A stretch of 64,000 bases of DNA from Caminibacter pacificus (GCF_003752135.1 NZ_RJVK01000001.1:248001-312000), one strand, 5' to 3'. Shown: positions 39,645-48,603, counted from the stretch's first letter. Numbers and translations: made by a program. Notes: generated by a model from the sequence alone, not told the origin.

Positions 39645-40166
39645 ATGGATTATAAAAAATACCTAAGAGATGATATAGATTTTAAAATTTTATCAAATTA
39701 TACTTTTGCATATGCCGATATCGAGGAAGATTTTGAGGAGTTCAAAAGAAGACTCGGCGGTTATGACGTTGGAGTGTGGGTGGATAAAATGGAGAATGGA
39801 GAATTGAAAATGGAGAATGGACAATGGAGAATGGATGAGATTCGTTTTTTCAATTCTCAAGGAGAAGAGCTAAGCTGGGAGGATTTGGTTTTAAATTATA
39901 TGAAAGCGTTAAATACTTTTATGAGAGAGCAAATAGGCGTTTGTATCAATAAAAACATTCCGAGAACCCTTGATAACGACCTTACATATCTAATCGTGCA
40001 AAGAAAAGATTATAAAGATTTTCACGACAACTTTTTTATTGCGGTTGACGGGGAGGTGATTTTTCCTATGATTACGAAAAATTTCGATATCGATTTGGCG
40101 ATTATTAAGCTTGTAGAGTGGAAAAATAGAGCGGGGATGAAAAATTTGATAAAATTTCACAATTAA
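39645..40166 (+). CDS. Uncharacterised protein, 173 aa, with an in-frame heptanucleotide repeat insertion
   Basis: No family recognised. It is soluble and acidic, without a signal peptide. Residues about 48-65 (KMENGELKMENGQWRMDE) are encoded by seven AATGGAN repeats and look foreign to the rest of the protein, which reads as a normal folded sequence before (FAYADIEEDFEEFKRRL) and after (SWEDLVLNYMKAL). The -10 for gpmA lies inside its last codons. Confidence 0.65.
   Translation: MDYKKYLRDDIDFKILSNYTFAYADIEEDFEEFKRRLGGYDVGVWVDKMENGELKMENGQWRMDEIRFFNSQGEELSWEDLVLNYMKALNTFMREQIGVCINKNIPRTLDNDLTYLIVQRKDYKDFHDNFFIAVDGEVIFPMITKNFDIDLAIIKLVEWKNRAGMKNLIKFHN
39788..39836 (+). repeat. Heptanucleotide tandem repeat AATGGAN x7 inside a coding region
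   Basis: Units: AATGGAG twice, AATTGAA, AATGGAG, AATGGAC, AATGGAG, AATGGAT. At 49 bp it is not a multiple of three. A change of one unit would shift the frame of the surrounding gene. The same unit recurs at 46565 and 47566. Confidence 0.9.
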
Positions 40167-41628: not shown

Positions 41629-42396
41629 TTAGAAGCTATATCCTAAGCTTCCTATAAGCGTATAGTTTGCCGATTCTTCGATATCAAAAGAGTAATCCAC
41701 TAAAACGCCTAATTTTTTGTTTATCGGATAATAAACGCTCATACCTAAATATTTGCTCCAATCACCCGAATCGTAAGCGGAATTTTCAACATATGCATAT
41801 GGTGAAATAAATAGTTTTTTATATGTAGTACCGACGCTTGCCGTAATAGTGTCTTTTGCGTTTGTTCCGCTTTCTCCGTAAATTTTGTGTTTTTCACTAA
41901 GAGAAAAGCTGTAGTTTTTGTAATAATACGTACCTTTTATATAAAGCGCATAATCGGTTTTGTCGTTAAAATACGTAGGCAGGTAAATTTTTGCGCCTAA
42001 TTTCAAATTGATATTGCTGTTTTTGACATTATTTAGATAATAATATCCTGCTAAAATCAGGTCGTTTGATTTATATCCGTCGCTGTATCCGTCATCTTTT
42101 ACTGAAAAATATAATTTTGCTTTTAGTTTGTCTTTTTTTGCCGAAATTGACGTAAAGAAAATATTCGAATCTTTATAGTCTTTATATCCGTCTTTTTCAT
42201 ATCCGAAATTAAAATAGTAGTTGATTTTGTTGAGTTTTTTTAATTGTTGCTTCGAGCATCCGTATTTATTTACCGTTTGTAAAAACGGAGTGTTAGGGCA
42301 TAAGTCAATATTATCAGGTACTCCGTCAAGGTCGCTATCTACGGTTTGTGCAAAACAAGATAGGGCAATAAGCCCCGTTAATATTAACTTTTTCAT
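41629..42396 (-). CDS. Outer-membrane beta-barrel with one thrombospondin-type-3 calcium repeat
   Basis: 255 residues. Signal peptide (MKKLILTGLIALSCFAQ), a TSP3 calcium motif DSDLDGVPDNIDLCPNTP (about 20-37), then Tyr/Lys/Asp-rich amphipathic strands to a terminal Phe (LIGSLGYSF), the usual outer-membrane end. Probably an 8-12 strand barrel with a Ca2+-binding periplasmic segment. It follows the acidic/His-rich gene by 11 nt, in the operon of the two-component system. Confidence 0.75.
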   Translation of the reverse strand: MKKLILTGLIALSCFAQTVDSDLDGVPDNIDLCPNTPFLQTVNKYGCSKQQLKKLNKINYYFNFGYEKDGYKDYKDSNIFFTSISAKKDKLKAKLYFSVKDDGYSDGYKSNDLILAGYYYLNNVKNSNINLKLGAKIYLPTYFNDKTDYALYIKGTYYYKNYSFSLSEKHKIYGESGTNAKDTITASVGTTYKKLFISPYAYVENSAYDSGDWSKYLGMSVYYPINKKLGVLVDYSFDIEESANYTLIGSLGYSF

Positions 42397-42407
42397 GGTT
42401 GAAATCC

Positions 42408-42848
42408 TTATTTATCGATATCAGTGTCTTTATCAGTATCTGTGTCTACATCAGGATGATCAGGTACGTCAGGATGTTCGATGTCGTGATCCATATCCGG
42501 ACGTTCTACATCATTATCCATTTCATGTTCTACGTGTTCCATTTCGTGTTCTACATGTTCTCTTTCTTGTTTCATCTCTTGATGTCTGTTTTGCATTTTA
42601 GCTTTTTTTTCTTCCATTTTTTCTTGCATCATTTGTTGTTTTTCGGCAAGTTCTTGGATAATTTTTTCTCTTTCTTGCTCGTTTAGTTGTCTTATTTGTT
42701 CTTTAAGTTCGTTCATTTTTTGAACTCTCTCTTGTAAAGGAAGATTTTCAATTTTTTGAATCTCTTTTTCAACATCTTGAGCTGTTAAGGCGAATGCCCC
42801 TGTTGTAATTATACTTAAACTTAATAGTGATAGTGCTAATCTTTTCAT
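42408..42848 (-). CDS. Secreted acidic, His-rich coiled-coil protein (CpxP/Spy-like by shape)
   Basis: 146 residues from ATG 42848 (SD AAAGGAGTGAC), preferred over an upstream in-frame start without SD. Signal peptide (KRLALSLLSLSIITTGAFA); a helical region with LPLQERVQKMNELKEQIRQL and NEQEREKIIQELAEKQQMM (about 35-75), recalling the LTxxQ helices of CpxP/Spy; then EHVEHEM twice in tandem and a tail of D, H, P and T (DHDIEHP, DHPDVDTDTDKDTDIDK). Likely periplasmic and metal- or Ca2+-binding. It directly follows the sensor kinase gene, the position expected for a sensor-modulating or target protein. The family is not established. Confidence 0.65.
   Translation of the reverse strand: MKRLALSLLSLSIITTGAFALTAQDVEKEIQKIENLPLQERVQKMNELKEQIRQLNEQEREKIIQELAEKQQMMQEKMEEKKAKMQNRHQEMKQEREHVEHEMEHVEHEMDNDVERPDMDHDIEHPDVPDHPDVDTDTDKDTDIDK
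42521..42562 (-). repeat. Two tandem 21-bp coding repeats (EHVEHEM)
   Basis: The DNA encodes EHVEHEM twice with a few third-position differences. Such repeats can expand or contract in frame and so tune the number of His/Glu ligands. Confidence 0.6.
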
Positions 42849-42931
42849 AGTCACTCCTTTTTTTGTTTTTTCGTTGTTGAAAGTATAGAAGAAAAGTGCA
42901 AACATTTCGTTAATTTAGTGTTTACGAAGTA

Positions 42932-43993
42932 TTAACAATAACGACTTAAATCCAAAATAACTTTTGTGCCTCTGTTTTTTTCGGATTCGATTTTTATATC
43001 TATTTTTAATTCGTCGCAAAGTTTTTTTACTATATTCATTCCTATTCCGATACCTCTTTCGTTTTCTTTATAAAAACGATTAAAAACTTTTTGAGGATTT
43101 TTTATGCCAATTCCCGTATCTTCGATAATGAGTTTTTTGTCTTTCATATATACTTTTATCTCTCCGCCTTTTTTGTTGTATTTAAAAGCGTTACTTATTA
43201 TGTTTTCGATTACTGAATTAAAAGCGTTTTTGTTTATTGTTATTTCACAATCGGCACTGTTGGTATGTTTGATATGAGGGTAATTTATCGAATAAAACGA
43301 CAATTTTTCGTCGATTAAATCTTTTATATTGAATGTTTCGACTTGGTTGGGATTGTTTGAGAGGAAATTTTTTAAATTTTCTTGGTAATTTAGGATGGCT
43401 TTTATATTTTGTTCTAATTTTTTGATTCTTTGATTTTCACCTATCTCTTTTTTTAGAAGATAAATATTTAATTTTAAAGATGTTAGAGGTGTATTTAGGT
43501 CGTGAAGTATGTCTTTTATGAATGTTTCGTTTATTTTGTACGCTTCTTTTAGGGGCTTATATAAAATATACGTTAGAATTAATGAAAATATAAGTATAAA
43601 AGTAAATTCGACAATAAATTGTCTGAAAATGTTTTCTTTGATTTTTTTTAAGGCATTTAGATATTCTATTTTTGAGATTGAAAGTTTTAGATAATACTTT
43701 TTTAGATAAGGTACGTCAAAAATCATAAAAAAACTGTTTTTGTCTTCTTTGAGTTTTAATATTTCGGGTTTTGGTTTTTTGTTTTTGGGTATGAAGTTTA
43801 TATCGGTTTTCGGGCAGTTCATTTTATAAGAGCAGATAATAAGCTCTTTTTTCGTTTTGTTGTTTAAAAAACCGACTTGCAGGTTATAGCTGTTGTAGTT
43901 TATATATAAAATAAAAGCGAAAAGAATTGAAAAGATAATTAAAAAGCTTGAAATTAAAAACTTTTTTTCATAATTCAATAGTATATCCTTCAC
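42932..43993 (-). CDS. Two-component sensor histidine kinase
   Basis: 353 residues. TM1 about 13-32, periplasmic sensor about 33-124 with Cys pair C54/C60, TM2 about 127-145, no obvious HAMP, H-box FIKDILHDLNTPLTSL with H164, N-box NAFNSVIENIISNAFKYN, G1 IIEDTGIGI, G2 NERGIGIGMNIVKK. All catalytic boxes are present. It overlaps the response regulator by 26 nt. Given its partner genes, it may sense envelope damage or metals; signal unknown. Confidence 0.92.
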   Translation of the reverse strand: MKDILLNYEKKFLISSFLIIFSILFAFILYINYNSYNLQVGFLNNKTKKELIICSYKMNCPKTDINFIPKNKKPKPEILKLKEDKNSFFMIFDVPYLKKYYLKLSISKIEYLNALKKIKENIFRQFIVEFTFILIFSLILTYILYKPLKEAYKINETFIKDILHDLNTPLTSLKLNIYLLKKEIGENQRIKKLEQNIKAILNYQENLKNFLSNNPNQVETFNIKDLIDEKLSFYSINYPHIKHTNSADCEITINKNAFNSVIENIISNAFKYNKKGGEIKVYMKDKKLIIEDTGIGIKNPQKVFNRFYKENERGIGIGMNIVKKLCDELKIDIKIESEKNRGTKVILDLSRYC

Positions 43994-44597
43994 CTCTTAT
44001 GTTTTTGATATCTATTCCCAATTTGTTTTTTAATTTTGTGATATTAACCCTTAAAGTTGCGTCGCTATGGGCGTTTGTAAGCTCTAAAAGTCTATCTTTT
44101 GGAACGACTTTGTTTTTATTTGTAATTAGCTCGTGGAAAATGTCTTTTAATACGAATCCTAAAGAGATGATTTTCCCGTTCTTTTTTACCTCTTTTGTTT
44201 GCGGGTCGTATTCGATGTCGTTTATTTTTATGATGTCGTGGTGCGGTTTTAACTTCGCTTTTAGTCTGATAAGTAATTCTTCAGGTTCGAAAGGTTTTTT
44301 TATAAAATCATCAGCTCCCGCATCAAACGCTTTTGACATCGTATTTAAGTCGGTAAGAGCCGTAATATAAATAGTAGGAGTTTCGTCATCCGCGTCTCTT
44401 AGGTTTTTTAGGACTTCTATTCCGTTTTCATCGGGTAAATTGATATCGAAAATATAAAGGTCATATTTTTCGTTATATGTTTTTTCGTATGCTTCTTGTG
44501 CGTTGTTTGCGATATCTACTTCAAAACCCTCCGATTCCAAAACTTCTTTTAATGTATCCGCTAACGTGAAATCATCTTCTAAAAGTAAAATTTTCAT
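43968..44597 (-). CDS. OmpR-family response regulator
   Basis: 209 residues. Receiver domain with acidic pocket EDD (7-9), phospho-acceptor D51 in YIFDINLPDENG, Thr in ITALT and Lys in KKPF; C-terminal winged helix (about 125-209) ending in IRGEGYTIEL, the OmpR/PhoB DNA-binding signature. Pairs with the overlapping histidine kinase. Direct repeats in front of its promoter are candidate binding sites. Confidence 0.93.
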   Translation of the reverse strand: MKILLLEDDFTLADTLKEVLESEGFEVDIANNAQEAYEKTYNEKYDLYIFDINLPDENGIEVLKNLRDADDETPTIYITALTDLNTMSKAFDAGADDFIKKPFEPEELLIRLKAKLKPHHDIIKINDIEYDPQTKEVKKNGKIISLGFVLKDIFHELITNKNKVVPKDRLLELTNAHSDATLRVNITKLKNKLGIDIKNIRGEGYTIEL

Positions 44598-44628
44598 TCA
44601 AAACCTTTTTTTCATAATTTTATCATAT

Positions 44629-44661
44629 GTTTAGTTTCGGTTTAGGTTAAAGGTTTATAAT
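44629..44661. promoter_or_regulatory. GTTTAG direct repeats and -10 between response regulator and ABC operon
   Basis: GTTTAG at 44629-44634 and 44640-44645 (11-bp spacing), with a weaker GTTTAT at 44653. TATAAT (44656-44661) is the -10 of the ABC operon, which places the two GTTTAG copies in its -35 region. On the minus strand TAAAAT near 44620 is the response-regulator -10. Eleven-bp direct repeats are typical of OmpR-family sites, so one regulator could control both operons. Confidence 0.5.
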
Positions 44662-44679
44662 GAAAAAAAAGGAGCAGAT

Positions 44680-45351
44680 ATGGTTAAGCTCACAAACGTT
44701 CACAAATCTTATAAATCGGGAGAAATCGAAGTAAAGGTTTTAGAAGGTCTTGATTTGTATATCCAAAAAGGCGAATTTGTAGCTCTTATAGGACCGAGCG
44801 GTAGCGGCAAAACCACTATTTTAAATATTATCGGAGCACTCGACAAGGCTGATAGCGGCAATGTGGAAGTAGCGGGAGTCGATATTACGAATAGAGATGA
44901 AAAAGAACTTACAAAATTTAGAGCCGATCATTTGGGGTATATTTTTCAGGATTTTAACCTTATTGAAGTTTTCAGCGTTTTTGAAAACGTAAATTTTCCT
45001 TTGAAAGTCATACATAAAAGAAAAGACGATGAAAAGGTAAAAGCGCTTTTGGAAGATATCGGCATGAGTGATCAGATAAATAAATTCCCCGACCAGCTCT
45101 CAGGCGGTCAAAAGCAAAGAGTAGCGGTCGCCAGAGCTCTTGTTAGCGACCCTCTTATAGTACTTGCTGATGAGCCTACGGCAAATCTGGATAGTGTGAC
45201 GAGTCATAAGGTGATAGAGCTTATGAGGAAGATGCAAAGAGAATTTAATACGACATTTATTTTCTCCACTCACGATACCCATTTGATTGATGAGGTTGAC
45301 AGGGTTTTATATTTGCAGGACGGAAAAATTATAAAAGACGAAAGGAAATAA
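44680..45351 (+). CDS. ABC transporter ATPase, LolD/MacB type
   Basis: 223 residues. Walker A GPSGSGKTTIL (about 39-49), Q-loop FQDFNL, signature LSGGQKQRVAVARAL (about 143-157), Walker B LIVLADEPTANLD, H-loop FSTHD. The LSGGQ/DEPTANLDS arrangement is of the LolD/FtsE/MacB group. It works with the FtsX-like permease that follows by 1 nt. SD AAGGAG. Confidence 0.92.
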   Translation: MVKLTNVHKSYKSGEIEVKVLEGLDLYIQKGEFVALIGPSGSGKTTILNIIGALDKADSGNVEVAGVDITNRDEKELTKFRADHLGYIFQDFNLIEVFSVFENVNFPLKVIHKRKDDEKVKALLEDIGMSDQINKFPDQLSGGQKQRVAVARALVSDPLIVLADEPTANLDSVTSHKVIELMRKMQREFNTTFIFSTHDTHLIDEVDRVLYLQDGKIIKDERK

Positions 45352-45352
45352 A

Positions 45353-46561
45353 ATGGAAAGTTTTAAAATTGCGTTTCGTAACCTCATCAGAATGGGAAGA
45401 AGAACGTTTTTAACCGGTTCACTCATAGCAATTGGCGTCGTGTTTGTGGTTCTATATATCACATACGCGGAGAGTTTTAAAAACTCTATGATAGCTCAGA
45501 TTACGGACAGCGTAATGGGTGAACTTCAAATTCACAAAAAAGGCTACGTTTCAAGTCTCGATTCACTGCCTCTTGATAAAAATTTGCCTCCAAAAACAGT
45601 CAAAAAAATAGAAGAAAAGCTAAATTCGATGCCGGAGATTTATTCATACAGCAAAAGCCTTAAATTCGGAGGAATGATTAGTAATTATACCGATTCTACG
45701 AATATAAGACTTAACGGAATCGACCCTGAAATGGAAGCAAAAACCCTGCCTCTGCTTAAAGAGCGCTTAAACGGTCATCTTCCAAAAGAAGGGGAAATAG
45801 TAATTCCTGAGCTTATAGCAAAAGGGCTTAAATTAAAAAAAGGTGACGTCGTAGTGCTTGTAGCTACCAATAAAAACGGAAGTATGAACGCAAAAACTTT
45901 TAAAATCAGTGGAATTGTGGGAATTATTTCGGGTCCCGGAGGTAGAGACGGGTATATAAACATAAAAGACGCACGAAAACTTCTTAGAATCAAAAAACCG
46001 GAAATTAATGAAATAGTTATAAAACTAAAAAATCCTGAATTGCTTGAGAGAGTAAATAAAGAGCTTATCGGTTTTACAAAAACTATTCAAAAACCGAAAC
46101 TTGAAGTGCATACGTGGATAAAACTCTCACCATTTGCGAATATCATAAAAATGCTTGATATTATGACTTTCAGTATTGAAATAATTTTGATTTCAATTGT
46201 ACTTGTTTCCATTCTTAACGTTATGATAATGAGTGTTTTTGAGAGAATAAAACAGATAGGGACTATGAAAGCTATGGGTACTTCTAAAAGTTTTATAGTA
46301 TCGATGTTTGTAAATGAAGGATTGCTTCTTGGGATATTCGGATTTATTATAGGAGTGGCGGCAAGTGTTGCTTTTGTCTATTTAATCGGTGATATCCATT
46401 ATAACTTCGGTCGTCAAAGCAACTTACTTTTGGTGCCTCATATCGATTATAAAAGCGTGCTAAGTGTGGGAGCTATGGTTGTGATTATTGCGATAATAGC
46501 GAGTCTTTATCCGGCGTTTAAGGCTGCGAGCTTAAAACCGATTGAAGCACTTAGGAGTTAA
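45353..46561 (+). CDS. FtsX-like ABC permease (LolC/E or MacB type)
   Basis: 402 residues. One N-terminal helix (about 19-38), a periplasmic MacB-PCD-like domain (about 40-265), then three C-terminal helices (about 277-300, 322-350, 365-385) with the FtsX motif ERIKQIGTMKAMGTSKSFI. With the upstream ATPase and a downstream LolA-like carrier, it probably extracts lipoproteins or another lipid cargo from the inner membrane. The true substrate is unknown. Confidence 0.88.
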   Translation: MESFKIAFRNLIRMGRRTFLTGSLIAIGVVFVVLYITYAESFKNSMIAQITDSVMGELQIHKKGYVSSLDSLPLDKNLPPKTVKKIEEKLNSMPEIYSYSKSLKFGGMISNYTDSTNIRLNGIDPEMEAKTLPLLKERLNGHLPKEGEIVIPELIAKGLKLKKGDVVVLVATNKNGSMNAKTFKISGIVGIISGPGGRDGYINIKDARKLLRIKKPEINEIVIKLKNPELLERVNKELIGFTKTIQKPKLEVHTWIKLSPFANIIKMLDIMTFSIEIILISIVLVSILNVMIMSVFERIKQIGTMKAMGTSKSFIVSMFVNEGLLLGIFGFIIGVAASVAFVYLIGDIHYNFGRQSNLLLVPHIDYKSVLSVGAMVVIIAIIASLYPAFKAASLKPIEALRS

Positions 46562-46564
46562 TTT

Positions 46565-46648
46565 TATGGACAATGGAAAATGGATAATAGACAATGGAAA
46601 ATGGATAATGCAAAATGGAGAATTGAGAATGGAGAATGGACAATGCAA
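46565..46648 (+). repeat. Heptanucleotide tandem repeat AATGGAN x12
   Basis: Twelve 7-bp units directly after the permease stop, mostly AATGGA plus one free base, with variants TATGGAC, AATAGAC, AATGCAA and AATTGAG. No gene is supported in it. Confidence 0.9.
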
Positions 46649-46657
46649 AATATATAA

Positions 46658-46832
46658 ATTGGAAGACAGAAAAGTCGTGTTTATTTACAGACTAAATATA
46701 TTCAACAATAATGCAAATTTCGGACATTTCAAAAAAGCTAAAAAGTACAGACCGCTTCGCTTTGGGTGTACTTTTTTTAACGCTTTTTTTTCATTGAAAT
46801 TTGCAGTTGTTTCATAATATTTGTCTTCCAAT
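46658..46832. repeat. 175-bp palindromic element with 11-bp terminal inverted repeats
   Basis: ATTGGAAGACA (46658-46668) and TGTCTTCCAAT (46822-46832) are exact inverted repeats. Inside are nested pairs: TGCAAATTTC (46712-46721) with GAAATTTGCA (46796-46805), AAAAAAGC (46731) with GCTTTTTT (46782), AAAAAGTACA (46740-46749) with TGTACTTTTT (46767-46776). The whole could fold as one hairpin. It has no coding potential. It looks like a MITE/REP-like element or a structured RNA. Together with the heptamer array it fills the 302-bp gap between the permease and the LolA-like gene. Confidence 0.75.
46740..46790 (+). terminator. Terminator-like hairpin at the core of the palindromic element
   Basis: AAAAAGTACA-N17-TGTACTTTTT with flanking runs of A before and T after resembles a bidirectional intrinsic terminator; a T-run follows at 46784-46791. 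It would lower expression of the LolA-like and beta-barrel genes relative to the ABC pair. Confidence 0.5.
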
Positions 46833-46863
46833 ATTATATTGAATTTAATCTTAAGGAGAAAAA

Positions 46864-47562
46864 ATGAAAAAATTATTATTAGCAGTACTTATTCCGGTGT
46901 TTTTGTTAGCATCGAATATTCTTGAAGAGATTGATAAAAATCTAAACCCTTCAAGCTTTGAGGCTTACAAGAAACTTATAAACATCGAACCCGACGGAAG
47001 TCGTAAAGAATTTCTTATGTGGATGATAAAAAAAGACAAAGACAAAATCGCAAACCTCTTTTTAAAGCCTGCAACTGACAACGGAAGATCGCTTTTAAGA
47101 CTTGGAGATAATATGTGGCTTTATATTCCGGGTATTGCTAAGCCTCTAAGAGTTGCATCGGCTCAAAGCGTAACAGGGGGCGTTTTCAATAACAGCGATA
47201 TTTTAAGAGTCGATTATGCCGTTGAATACGATATCGAAAAACAAGAAGGCGATACGCTTTATCTAAAAGCAAAAAACGAAGATGTTACATATGAAAAAAT
47301 AGTTATGAAAATAGATTTAAAAAGAAAATTGCCAATTAGGCTTGATTGTTATGCGGGCGGGATATTAATAAAAACGATTGAATACGGAAAAATTACAGAT
47401 TTTGGAAACGGAATAGTAAGACCTGCCGTTATGCAAACGACTTCACCGCTTCAAAAAGGTTATAAAAGTATAATGATTTGGGCGAAAATCAAACCGAGAG
47501 AGCTTAAAGACGAATATTTTACGCTTGAATTTATGCCTCATCTTAATGAGATTAGAAAGTAA
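46864..47562 (+). CDS. LolA-like outer-membrane lipoprotein-sorting protein
   Basis: 232 residues. Signal peptide (KKLLLAVLIPVFLLA), then the LolA-like (PF17131-type) pattern: LMWMIKKDKDKIANLFLKPATDNGRSLLRLGDNMWLY in part (GRSLLRLGDNMWLYIPG, about 78-94) and VTGGVFNNSDILRVDYAVEY. It should be a periplasmic carrier with a hydrophobic cavity. SD AAGGAG. Its neighbours (LolD-like ABC pair upstream, beta-barrel downstream) form an inner-to-outer-membrane path. Confidence 0.82.
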   Translation: MKKLLLAVLIPVFLLASNILEEIDKNLNPSSFEAYKKLINIEPDGSRKEFLMWMIKKDKDKIANLFLKPATDNGRSLLRLGDNMWLYIPGIAKPLRVASAQSVTGGVFNNSDILRVDYAVEYDIEKQEGDTLYLKAKNEDVTYEKIVMKIDLKRKLPIRLDCYAGGILIKTIEYGKITDFGNGIVRPAVMQTTSPLQKGYKSIMIWAKIKPRELKDEYFTLEFMPHLNEIRK

Positions 47563-47565
47563 TTT

Positions 47566-47586
47566 AATGGAAAATGGAGAATTAAG
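47566..47586 (+). repeat. Short heptanucleotide repeat remnant (AATGGAN x2-3)
   Basis: AATGGAA, AATGGAG, AATTAAG lie between the LolA-like stop and the next ATG, and the first codons of that gene (ATGAAAA, ATGGAAA) look like decayed units. The array seems to have supplied the start region of the beta-barrel gene. Confidence 0.7.
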
Positions 47587-48603
47587 ATGAAAAATTTAAA
47601 ATGGAAAATTTTGTTTTTATTGCCGGTTTTTATGTTTGCCGGTGATTTAGACAATATCGACACTTCTTTTGATTTGGGAGATGTTGATAAGCCGTATTCT
47701 TACAAAGGATATGTTAAACCCGAAGCTTATTATATCGATGATAAAGACAAATATAAAAAAATAAAAACTGAGCTTAATTTTGAGGGTGATTATAAAAAGA
47801 ATCTTTGGTATTTTAAGTTTAATTGGAGCGGATATTATATAAATGACGAAAAAGATATTCAAACTTTCGGCGTTTTAAACGAAGGATACGTAAAATACGG
47901 CGATGTTAATAAAAACATTACTATAGGAAAAGAGCTTTTAAAATGGGGTAAGGGATATGCATATAGTGCTGTGAATTTTTTTACAAGAGAAAAAAATCCC
48001 TTATATCCTGAGGATTTAAAACAAGGATACGATTTATTGCATTTAAAAACTATTAGTTCTTTAAATTCCGATATTAAAAATTACTCAATTGATTTAATTT
48101 ATATGCCCGTAACCGACACATTAAATTCAGACCTAAAAAAATCCCAAAATTTCGGAGGAAAACTTTATATGCTATATAAAGACGTCGATATCGATTTTAT
48201 GTTTGAAAAAAGCAATACTTATGCCGACAGATTCGGTGGTGATTTTTCTTTTAATTTAATGACGGAGCTTGAAATTCACGGGGAATACGCATTTGACAGC
48301 GATAAAAACAACTCCTATCTCTTAGGTGCAAAATACGCAAGCGATTATGATTATACGATAACTTGCGAGTGGTATAAAAAATGGGATAATAATAAATTTT
48401 TGTATCTTAAAGTTTCTCAAAAAGATTTTTTTATAGATTATCTGACGGCATATATGACGGGCATCAGAAACTATACTCAAAATATAAATTCTTTACTAAT
48501 AGGCGGAAGTTATGACTTTAAAAATAATTTTATATTTACAACCGAGTTTTTGACTTCCACTAAACAAAAGTATCTTAAAGTATCTTTGGGGTATTATTTT
48601 TGA
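47587..48603 (+). CDS. Outer-membrane beta-barrel protein of the LolA-like cluster
   Basis: 338 residues. The N-terminus MKNLKWKILFLLPVFMFAG is a signal peptide partly made of repeat-like sequence. The rest is alternating Tyr/Lys/Asp strands with turns, ending KVSLGYYF with terminal Phe, typical of an outer-membrane barrel. It resembles the DUF1302-like or alginate-export-like barrels that accompany LolA-like carriers, but no family is certain. No conventional SD is visible; GGAGAATTAAG from the repeat precedes ATG. Confidence 0.75.
   Translation: MKNLKWKILFLLPVFMFAGDLDNIDTSFDLGDVDKPYSYKGYVKPEAYYIDDKDKYKKIKTELNFEGDYKKNLWYFKFNWSGYYINDEKDIQTFGVLNEGYVKYGDVNKNITIGKELLKWGKGYAYSAVNFFTREKNPLYPEDLKQGYDLLHLKTISSLNSDIKNYSIDLIYMPVTDTLNSDLKKSQNFGGKLYMLYKDVDIDFMFEKSNTYADRFGGDFSFNLMTELEIHGEYAFDSDKNNSYLLGAKYASDYDYTITCEWYKKWDNNKFLYLKVSQKDFFIDYLTAYMTGIRNYTQNINSLLIGGSYDFKNNFIFTTEFLTSTKQKYLKVSLGYYF

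Follow-up and report, generated by a model that had tools for sequence, protein, structure and literature searches.

The eight genes analyzed here lie in a 64,000-nucleotide stretch of the Caminibacter pacificus genome (the window; its genome is labelled G000, and "family" and "genus", with labels such as f1, g1, and g2, indicate kinship), and synteny showed that they are two independently inherited modules meeting at a junction. Module A consists of a response regulator (RR1), a sensor kinase (HK1), a small secreted protein, and a TSP3-repeat barrel, and module B consists of a LolD-like ATPase, an FtsX-type permease, a LolA-like carrier, and another barrel. We consider it likely that the modules are independent, that module B was acquired beside module A, and that it answers, as predicted, to RR2, the regulator of an unlinked two-component system (RR2/HK2). 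A sequence-only reading had joined the eight genes into one module with a shared operator. All eight open reading frames (ORFs) were present on the strands it gave, and the claim of unity failed because the genes were not kept together in related genomes. The features, in window coordinates, are as follows.

41629..42396, minus strand: module A TSP3-repeat outer-membrane barrel gene (ORF; weak TSP_3 match; orthologues beside the same two-component genes).
42408..42848, minus strand: module A small secreted helical protein, 146 aa, with an acidic/His-rich tail (ORF; N-terminal core).
42893..42936, minus strand: predicted RR1-type operator made up of four 11-bp repeats ahead of the small secreted protein gene (sequence, matrices); the end of the last repeat overlaps the HK1 stop region.
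42932..43993, minus strand: module A sensor kinase HK1 with periplasmic C54/C60 (HisKA, HATPase_c; Cys pair).
43968..44597, minus strand: module A OmpR-type response regulator RR1 (Response_reg, Trans_reg_C).
44628..44661, plus strand: predicted module B promoter, RR2-type (PhoP-like) box TGTTTA-N5-GGTTTA, then 11 nt and TATAAT.
44680..45351, plus strand: module B LolD-like ABC ATPase (ABC_tran; below the LolD equivalog cut-off).
45353..46561, plus strand: module B FtsX/MacB_PCD permease (Pfam).
46658..46832, strand not assigned: palindromic repeat element within module B, in the gap between the FtsX and LolA-like genes.
46864..47562, plus strand: module B PF17131 LolA-like periplasmic carrier (Pfam; AlphaFold, Foldseek).
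47587..48603, plus strand: module B 18-strand outer-membrane barrel (AlphaFold; porin-like folds).

The flanking genes pgm, fetB-like, and hisD were syntenic across the family. The fetB-like gene was directly next to hisD, with nothing between them, in G002, G005, G012, and G017. In G013 (genus g2), exactly RR1, HK1, the small protein, and the TSP3 barrel lay between fetB-like and hisD, with no ABC operon, and contig fragments of G008, G010, and G011 (also g2) agreed with module A at this site without module B. In the window genome, module B lay between module A and hisD. The LolA-like gene was found in 2 of the 21 family genomes, G000 and G017 only. The G017 operon was at another locus, flanked by a small lipoprotein-like gene on one side and a DNA-ligase-like gene on the other, and no two-component genes adjoined it. 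Its identity to the window copy was 93% for LolD, 91% for FtsX, 97% for the LolA-like carrier, and 76% for the barrel. Since sister loci hold module A alone or neither module, and G017 carries module B elsewhere, the window carries both units side by side. A very recent transfer between G000 and G017, an idea prompted by the 97% carrier identity, was weakened because the ABC genes were about 83% identical at the DNA level and the barrel 76% at the protein level.

Many Campylobacterota have module A as a conserved unit of four genes. Pfam matches in the two modules were to HisKA/HATPase, Response_reg/Trans_reg_C, ABC_tran, MacB_PCD/FtsX, and PF17131 LolA_like, and RR1/HK1 was of the OmpR/PhoB type, with a receiver and winged helix in the regulator and HisKA and HATPase domains in the kinase. 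HK1-like kinases (E up to 1e-35) were present in 96 of 397 sampled class genomes, a count that takes in more distant paralogues. Of 18 class loci picked by HK1 similarity, 15 had a TSP3 barrel beside the two-component genes, and in 13 the gene after the kinase coded for a small secreted protein that shared the N-terminal core. The periplasmic domain of HK1 contained a C-[SA]-x4-C pair (C54, C60) that was invariant in all aligned orthologues (28 rows, 25 distinct genomes). The barrel had been described as carrying calcium repeats; the repeat was kept in orthologues, but it was a single PF02412 copy scoring 18.1 bits against the Pfam gathering threshold of 25.

The small secreted protein had been characterized by its acidic/His-rich sequence. 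Such a tail was present here, but it was lineage-specific, and the short N-terminal helical core alone was conserved. Tails of orthologues ranged from acidic/His-rich to Gln/Met/His-rich, and the acidic tail is therefore not what is conserved. The CpxP/Spy-like label had been drawn from gene position alone; no PF07813 LTXXQ match was obtained at E up to 0.1 (Pfam) or 0.01 (a second search), and membership of the Spy/CpxP family was rejected.

The small-protein gene was preceded by tandem 11-bp repeats; the window and two sister genomes each had four, and the RR1 box repeats were GYTAACAYTTT-like across the class. An RR1-type box was also found upstream of RR1 itself in six f7 genomes, mostly 38 nt before the start. 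Module A may be an envelope sensor that regulates its own expression and reports thiol-redox or metal state. We read it as an old campylobacterial signalling unit in which the invariant Cys pair probably lets HK1 sense a thiol-redox or metal signal in the periplasm, and RR1 would activate the small-protein and barrel genes through the tandem GYTAACAYTTT-type repeats.

The repeat upstream of module B was of a different kind. Exact GTTTAG-N5-GTTTAG was found at 44629-44645, as had been noticed, followed by a perfect TATAAT at 44656-44661. Genome-wide motif searching bore out this observation in part: the perfect copy was the sole one in the 64-kb window and in the 1.86-Mb genome, but with two mismatches allowed, matches in the window were about as frequent as chance predicts (12 found, 9.15 expected), so that spacing and comparative evidence carry the weight. 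In the PhoP-box register, the sequence reads TGTTTA-GTTTC-GGTTTA, 11 nt, TATAAT. The promoter (44628-44661) matched the PhoP-type operator pattern, (T/G)GTTTA-N5-(T/G)GTTTA located 11-12 nt upstream of the -10 hexamer (PMC3335776), including the distance to the -10. The suggestion of an OmpR-family operator therefore held up, as a PhoP-type box predicted by motif.

The adjacent regulator was not the one that the box matched. With the RR1 matrix built on small-protein promoters, the window operator scored -4.2, against 15.3 for the window small-protein promoter, which was in the training set. Family-specific RR1 matrices gave the operator -1.3 and 1.9, which is background level, and the repeat was rejected as an RR1 operator. 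No GTTTAG-type box was found in the RR1-hisD intergenic regions of genus g2. The shared-operator claim was accordingly not upheld: the box matched unlinked RR2, and RR1 had its own box upstream of the small protein.

A perfect copy of the repeat was located by pattern search at G017:C1:345808, just before the RR2 gene. Across the family, the RR2/HK2 system was conserved and lay between a moaA/sirtuin-like region and DUF2202 genes. GTTTA-N6-GTTTA occurred in promoters of RR2, DUF2202 genes, or a small secreted protein gene in eight genomes, and most of these boxes were accompanied by a -10-like hexamer. A matrix was built from 14 RR2-locus sites of the eight genomes, with no module B promoter included. 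The module B promoters scored 20.6 (G000) and 22.4 (G017), and across 399,600 positions no other site outside the training set scored above 15.4. The module B box differed from the G017 RR2 promoter box at 1 of 17 positions. Because the module B promoter carries an RR2 box by motif, module B most likely belongs, as predicted from sequence, to the RR2 regulon. Module B is present in just two family genomes, so the conservation of its box rests on two promoters of common descent.

Among the matches listed, zero-mismatch boxes with TATAAT were at the RR2 locus in G001, G002 (two), G003, G005, and G009, those in G000 were at module B and C3:191041, and that in G006:C59 was not at the RR2 locus. 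The box and TATAAT at G000:C3:191041 lay upstream of a Peptidase_M99 gene (L196:483-1481), which is a candidate further RR2 target; Peptidase_M99 is a cell-shape carboxypeptidase family. The recognition helices of the two regulators differed (SDATLRVNITKLK in RR1 and NENSLRVFIKDLR in RR2). RR2 scored 102.5 bits against the NCBIfam PhoP equivalog cut-off of 336 and is, judged by this profile, not PhoP itself. The conserved two-component genes at L156 (G000:C2, about 30.4-35.5 kb) were accompanied by genes for two DUF2202 proteins and for a membrane protein with DUF4405; a TolC-HlyD-MacB-ABC set followed this system in G009. A search of a literature library found no paper on DUF2202.

Use of the repeat by a third OmpR-type regulator, or by several with overlapping specificity, rather than by RR2 specifically, is quite unlikely in our judgement. 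The genome encodes several HK paralogues, OmpR-family boxes look alike, and GTTTA is common to RR1 and RR2 boxes. One RR1-promoter site of G013 scored 14-16 with the RR2 matrix, and the G017 module B box scored 8.9 with a pooled RR1 matrix, a value reached by just 62 background sites; taken with the shared GTTTA, these scores make cross-talk between RR1 and RR2 possible. In other Campylobacterota, module B promoters had an 11-bp repeat of another type, TTAAYAT, near the -35, found upstream of LolD in L107, L108, L112, L113, L115, L118, L120, and L122. However, the RR2 matrix placed both module B promoters among genuine RR2-locus sites, far above all else, and the single difference from the G017 RR2 box also argues for RR2 itself. 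Whether the other campylobacterial module B promoters are RR1 targets was ambiguous, with most best scores at 4.9-10.3 and one at 15.7.

A single eight-gene system, in which RR1 senses the envelope via HK1 and the acidic protein and drives the divergent export operon from a shared operator, appears very unlikely. RR1 and LolD are adjacent and divergent, 82 bp apart, and the RR1 unit was within about 10 kb of a different, non-orthologous PF17131 LolA-like gene in six f7 genomes (G252, G302, G344, G353, G369, and G345; L284-L289). The f7 operon, where complete, was LolA-FtsX-FtsX-LolD-OMP; G302 and G344 showed the LolA-like gene alone. The RR1 unit was adjacent and divergent to the LolA-like locus in two of the six, each with one RR1 box within the shared intergenic region. 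However, no RR1 box in the f7 genomes examined was oriented toward the LolA-like gene, and the scattered inheritance in the family, the background RR1 scores of the window operator, and the g2 intergenic regions lacking such a box all speak against one system. The f7 neighbourhood, which may reflect shared synteny or a functional link, is the main reason for not wholly dismissing the idea. In two lineages, the window and f7, module A is found beside LolA-like/FtsX/LolD loci that are not orthologous to each other, as if its sensor had repeatedly been paired with such exporters. An undescribed envelope system spanning the class, with the Cx5C kinase unit tied in function to LolA-type outer-membrane export, nevertheless strikes us as unlikely.

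Module B is an accessory operon of the type VII ABC kind and is widespread, occurring in several phyla. The permease/ATPase pair gave Pfam matches to FtsX (66.1 bits, cut-off 25.5), MacB_PCD (55.6, cut-off 27), and ABC ATPase (118.2, cut-off 25), and on these domains the transporter is of type VII (mechanotransmission). The ATPase missed the LolD equivalog cut-off (TIGR02211, 232.3 against 307.75), and the permease that of LolC/E (TIGR02212, 134.3 against 362.45). The carrier matched PF17131 with 109.6 bits against a gathering threshold of 30 and was below that of canonical LolA (PF03548, 13.6 against 23.6 bits); its predicted structure had a LolA-superfamily fold (AlphaFold pLDDT 84; Foldseek TM 0.80 to 3buu). 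The barrel was predicted to have 18 strands (AlphaFold pLDDT 85), and a fold search returned general porin matches and no specific relative. A housekeeping Lol role is unlikely because the operon is an accessory one and the genome has a further FtsX-domain permease gene, similar in length, at G000:C1:360498.

The LolD-FtsX-LolA-like-barrel order was kept in 13 of 16 campylobacterial loci; the rest were broken or lay at a contig edge. Most of 80 loci outside Campylobacterota, from Desulfobacterota/Deltaproteobacteria, Nitrospirae, Gamma- and Betaproteobacteria, and others, also kept it. An extra protein was sometimes inserted before the LolA-like gene, of the Nitro_FeMo-Co type in L211 and cytochrome-like in L119. 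Many module B operons from other phyla had an apparently secreted Nitro_FeMo-Co-type protein just before the LolA-like gene, as seen in L211, L213, L216, L218, L221, L222, L239, L244, L273, and L281, with the family match established for L211 alone among these ten. A search of a literature library found no paper on NE2245.

The gap between the FtsX and LolA-like genes (302 bp) carried a genome-wide palindromic repeat. This element (46658-46832; DNA fold z -7.2) had a core of about 112 bp with 15 further partial copies in the genome, and a similar element was at the equivalent place in G017. Rfam gave no match at the gathering threshold. Imprecise ATGGANAATGGA-type tandem repeats in 14-nt steps were seen at 46566-46660; ORF 39645-40166 contains a similar stretch (about 39700-39800), and the barrel gene is preceded by a short one.

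Reading the plus-strand operon as a Lol-like exporter held up as a prediction. A PhoP-type box 11-12 nt from the -10 is in an activator position; phosphorylated RR2 would bind the direct repeat, placed for activation, and switch on module B. Type VII ABC proteins work by mechanotransmission, and LolA folds bind acyl chains. LolD/FtsX might extract lipidated or hydrophobic cargo from the inner membrane, with both cargo and direction being presumed, the LolA-like protein would carry it onward, and the barrel would receive or release it at the outer membrane. Module B might instead serve efflux or detoxification, for example by expelling metals or antimicrobials, and the LolA-like protein would then be its periplasmic binding partner; we regard this as possible if rather unlikely. 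Its neighbours varied, including ArsP and LMWPc-type genes, DUF411, an RcnA-like permease, and OmpR- and NtrC-type two-component genes, with LTXXQ/Metal_resist, EF-hand, and TolC-HlyD-MacB genes elsewhere. The ars-type genes, DUF411, the RcnA-like permease, LTXXQ/Metal_resist, and the TolC-HlyD-MacB sets would suit efflux, as would the MacB-like periplasmic core domain of the permease. However, the operon has no adaptor protein or TolC, the neighbours are not constant, many loci are without resistance genes, and the known members of the carrier's fold bind acyl chains, all of which speaks against efflux.

Two uncharacterised, well-delimited envelope modules thereby become testable: a campylobacterial two-component unit whose kinase has a conserved pair of periplasmic cysteines and whose operator can be read, and a four-gene export operon, present in several phyla, in which a Lol-type ABC transporter and a LolA-like carrier come with a barrel of their own. 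An operon that lies beside one regulator but bears, by motif, the operator of another also calls for caution in inferring regulation from adjacency.

Among known systems, LolCDE-LolA-LolB resembles module B in its LolD-like ATPase, FtsX-type permease, and LolA-fold carrier toward the outer membrane. Module B differs in having one permease, an ATPase and permease below the Lol equivalog cut-offs, a PF17131 rather than a PF03548 carrier, a barrel in place of LolB, and an accessory distribution (2 of 21 family genomes). LolA2/LolB2 of the Flavobacterium flexirubin locus likewise include a specialised LolA-like carrier in a dedicated operon, with pigment or a locus lipoprotein as the suggested substrate, but the available part of that report mentions no FtsX/LolD pair or barrel (PMC11885536). 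The enterobacterial PhoP box has the same half-sites, spacing, and 11-12 nt to the -10 as the module B box (PMC3335776), but the RR2 regulon is different and RR2 scores 102.5 against the PhoP-model cut-off of 336. CpxAR-CpxP and Spy resemble module A in combining an OmpR-type two-component system with a small secreted helical protein, whereas the module A protein is without the LTXXQ domain, HK1 scores 68 bits against the CpxA-model cut-off of 486, and module A has a Cys pair in its sensor domain and a TSP3 barrel as a partner.
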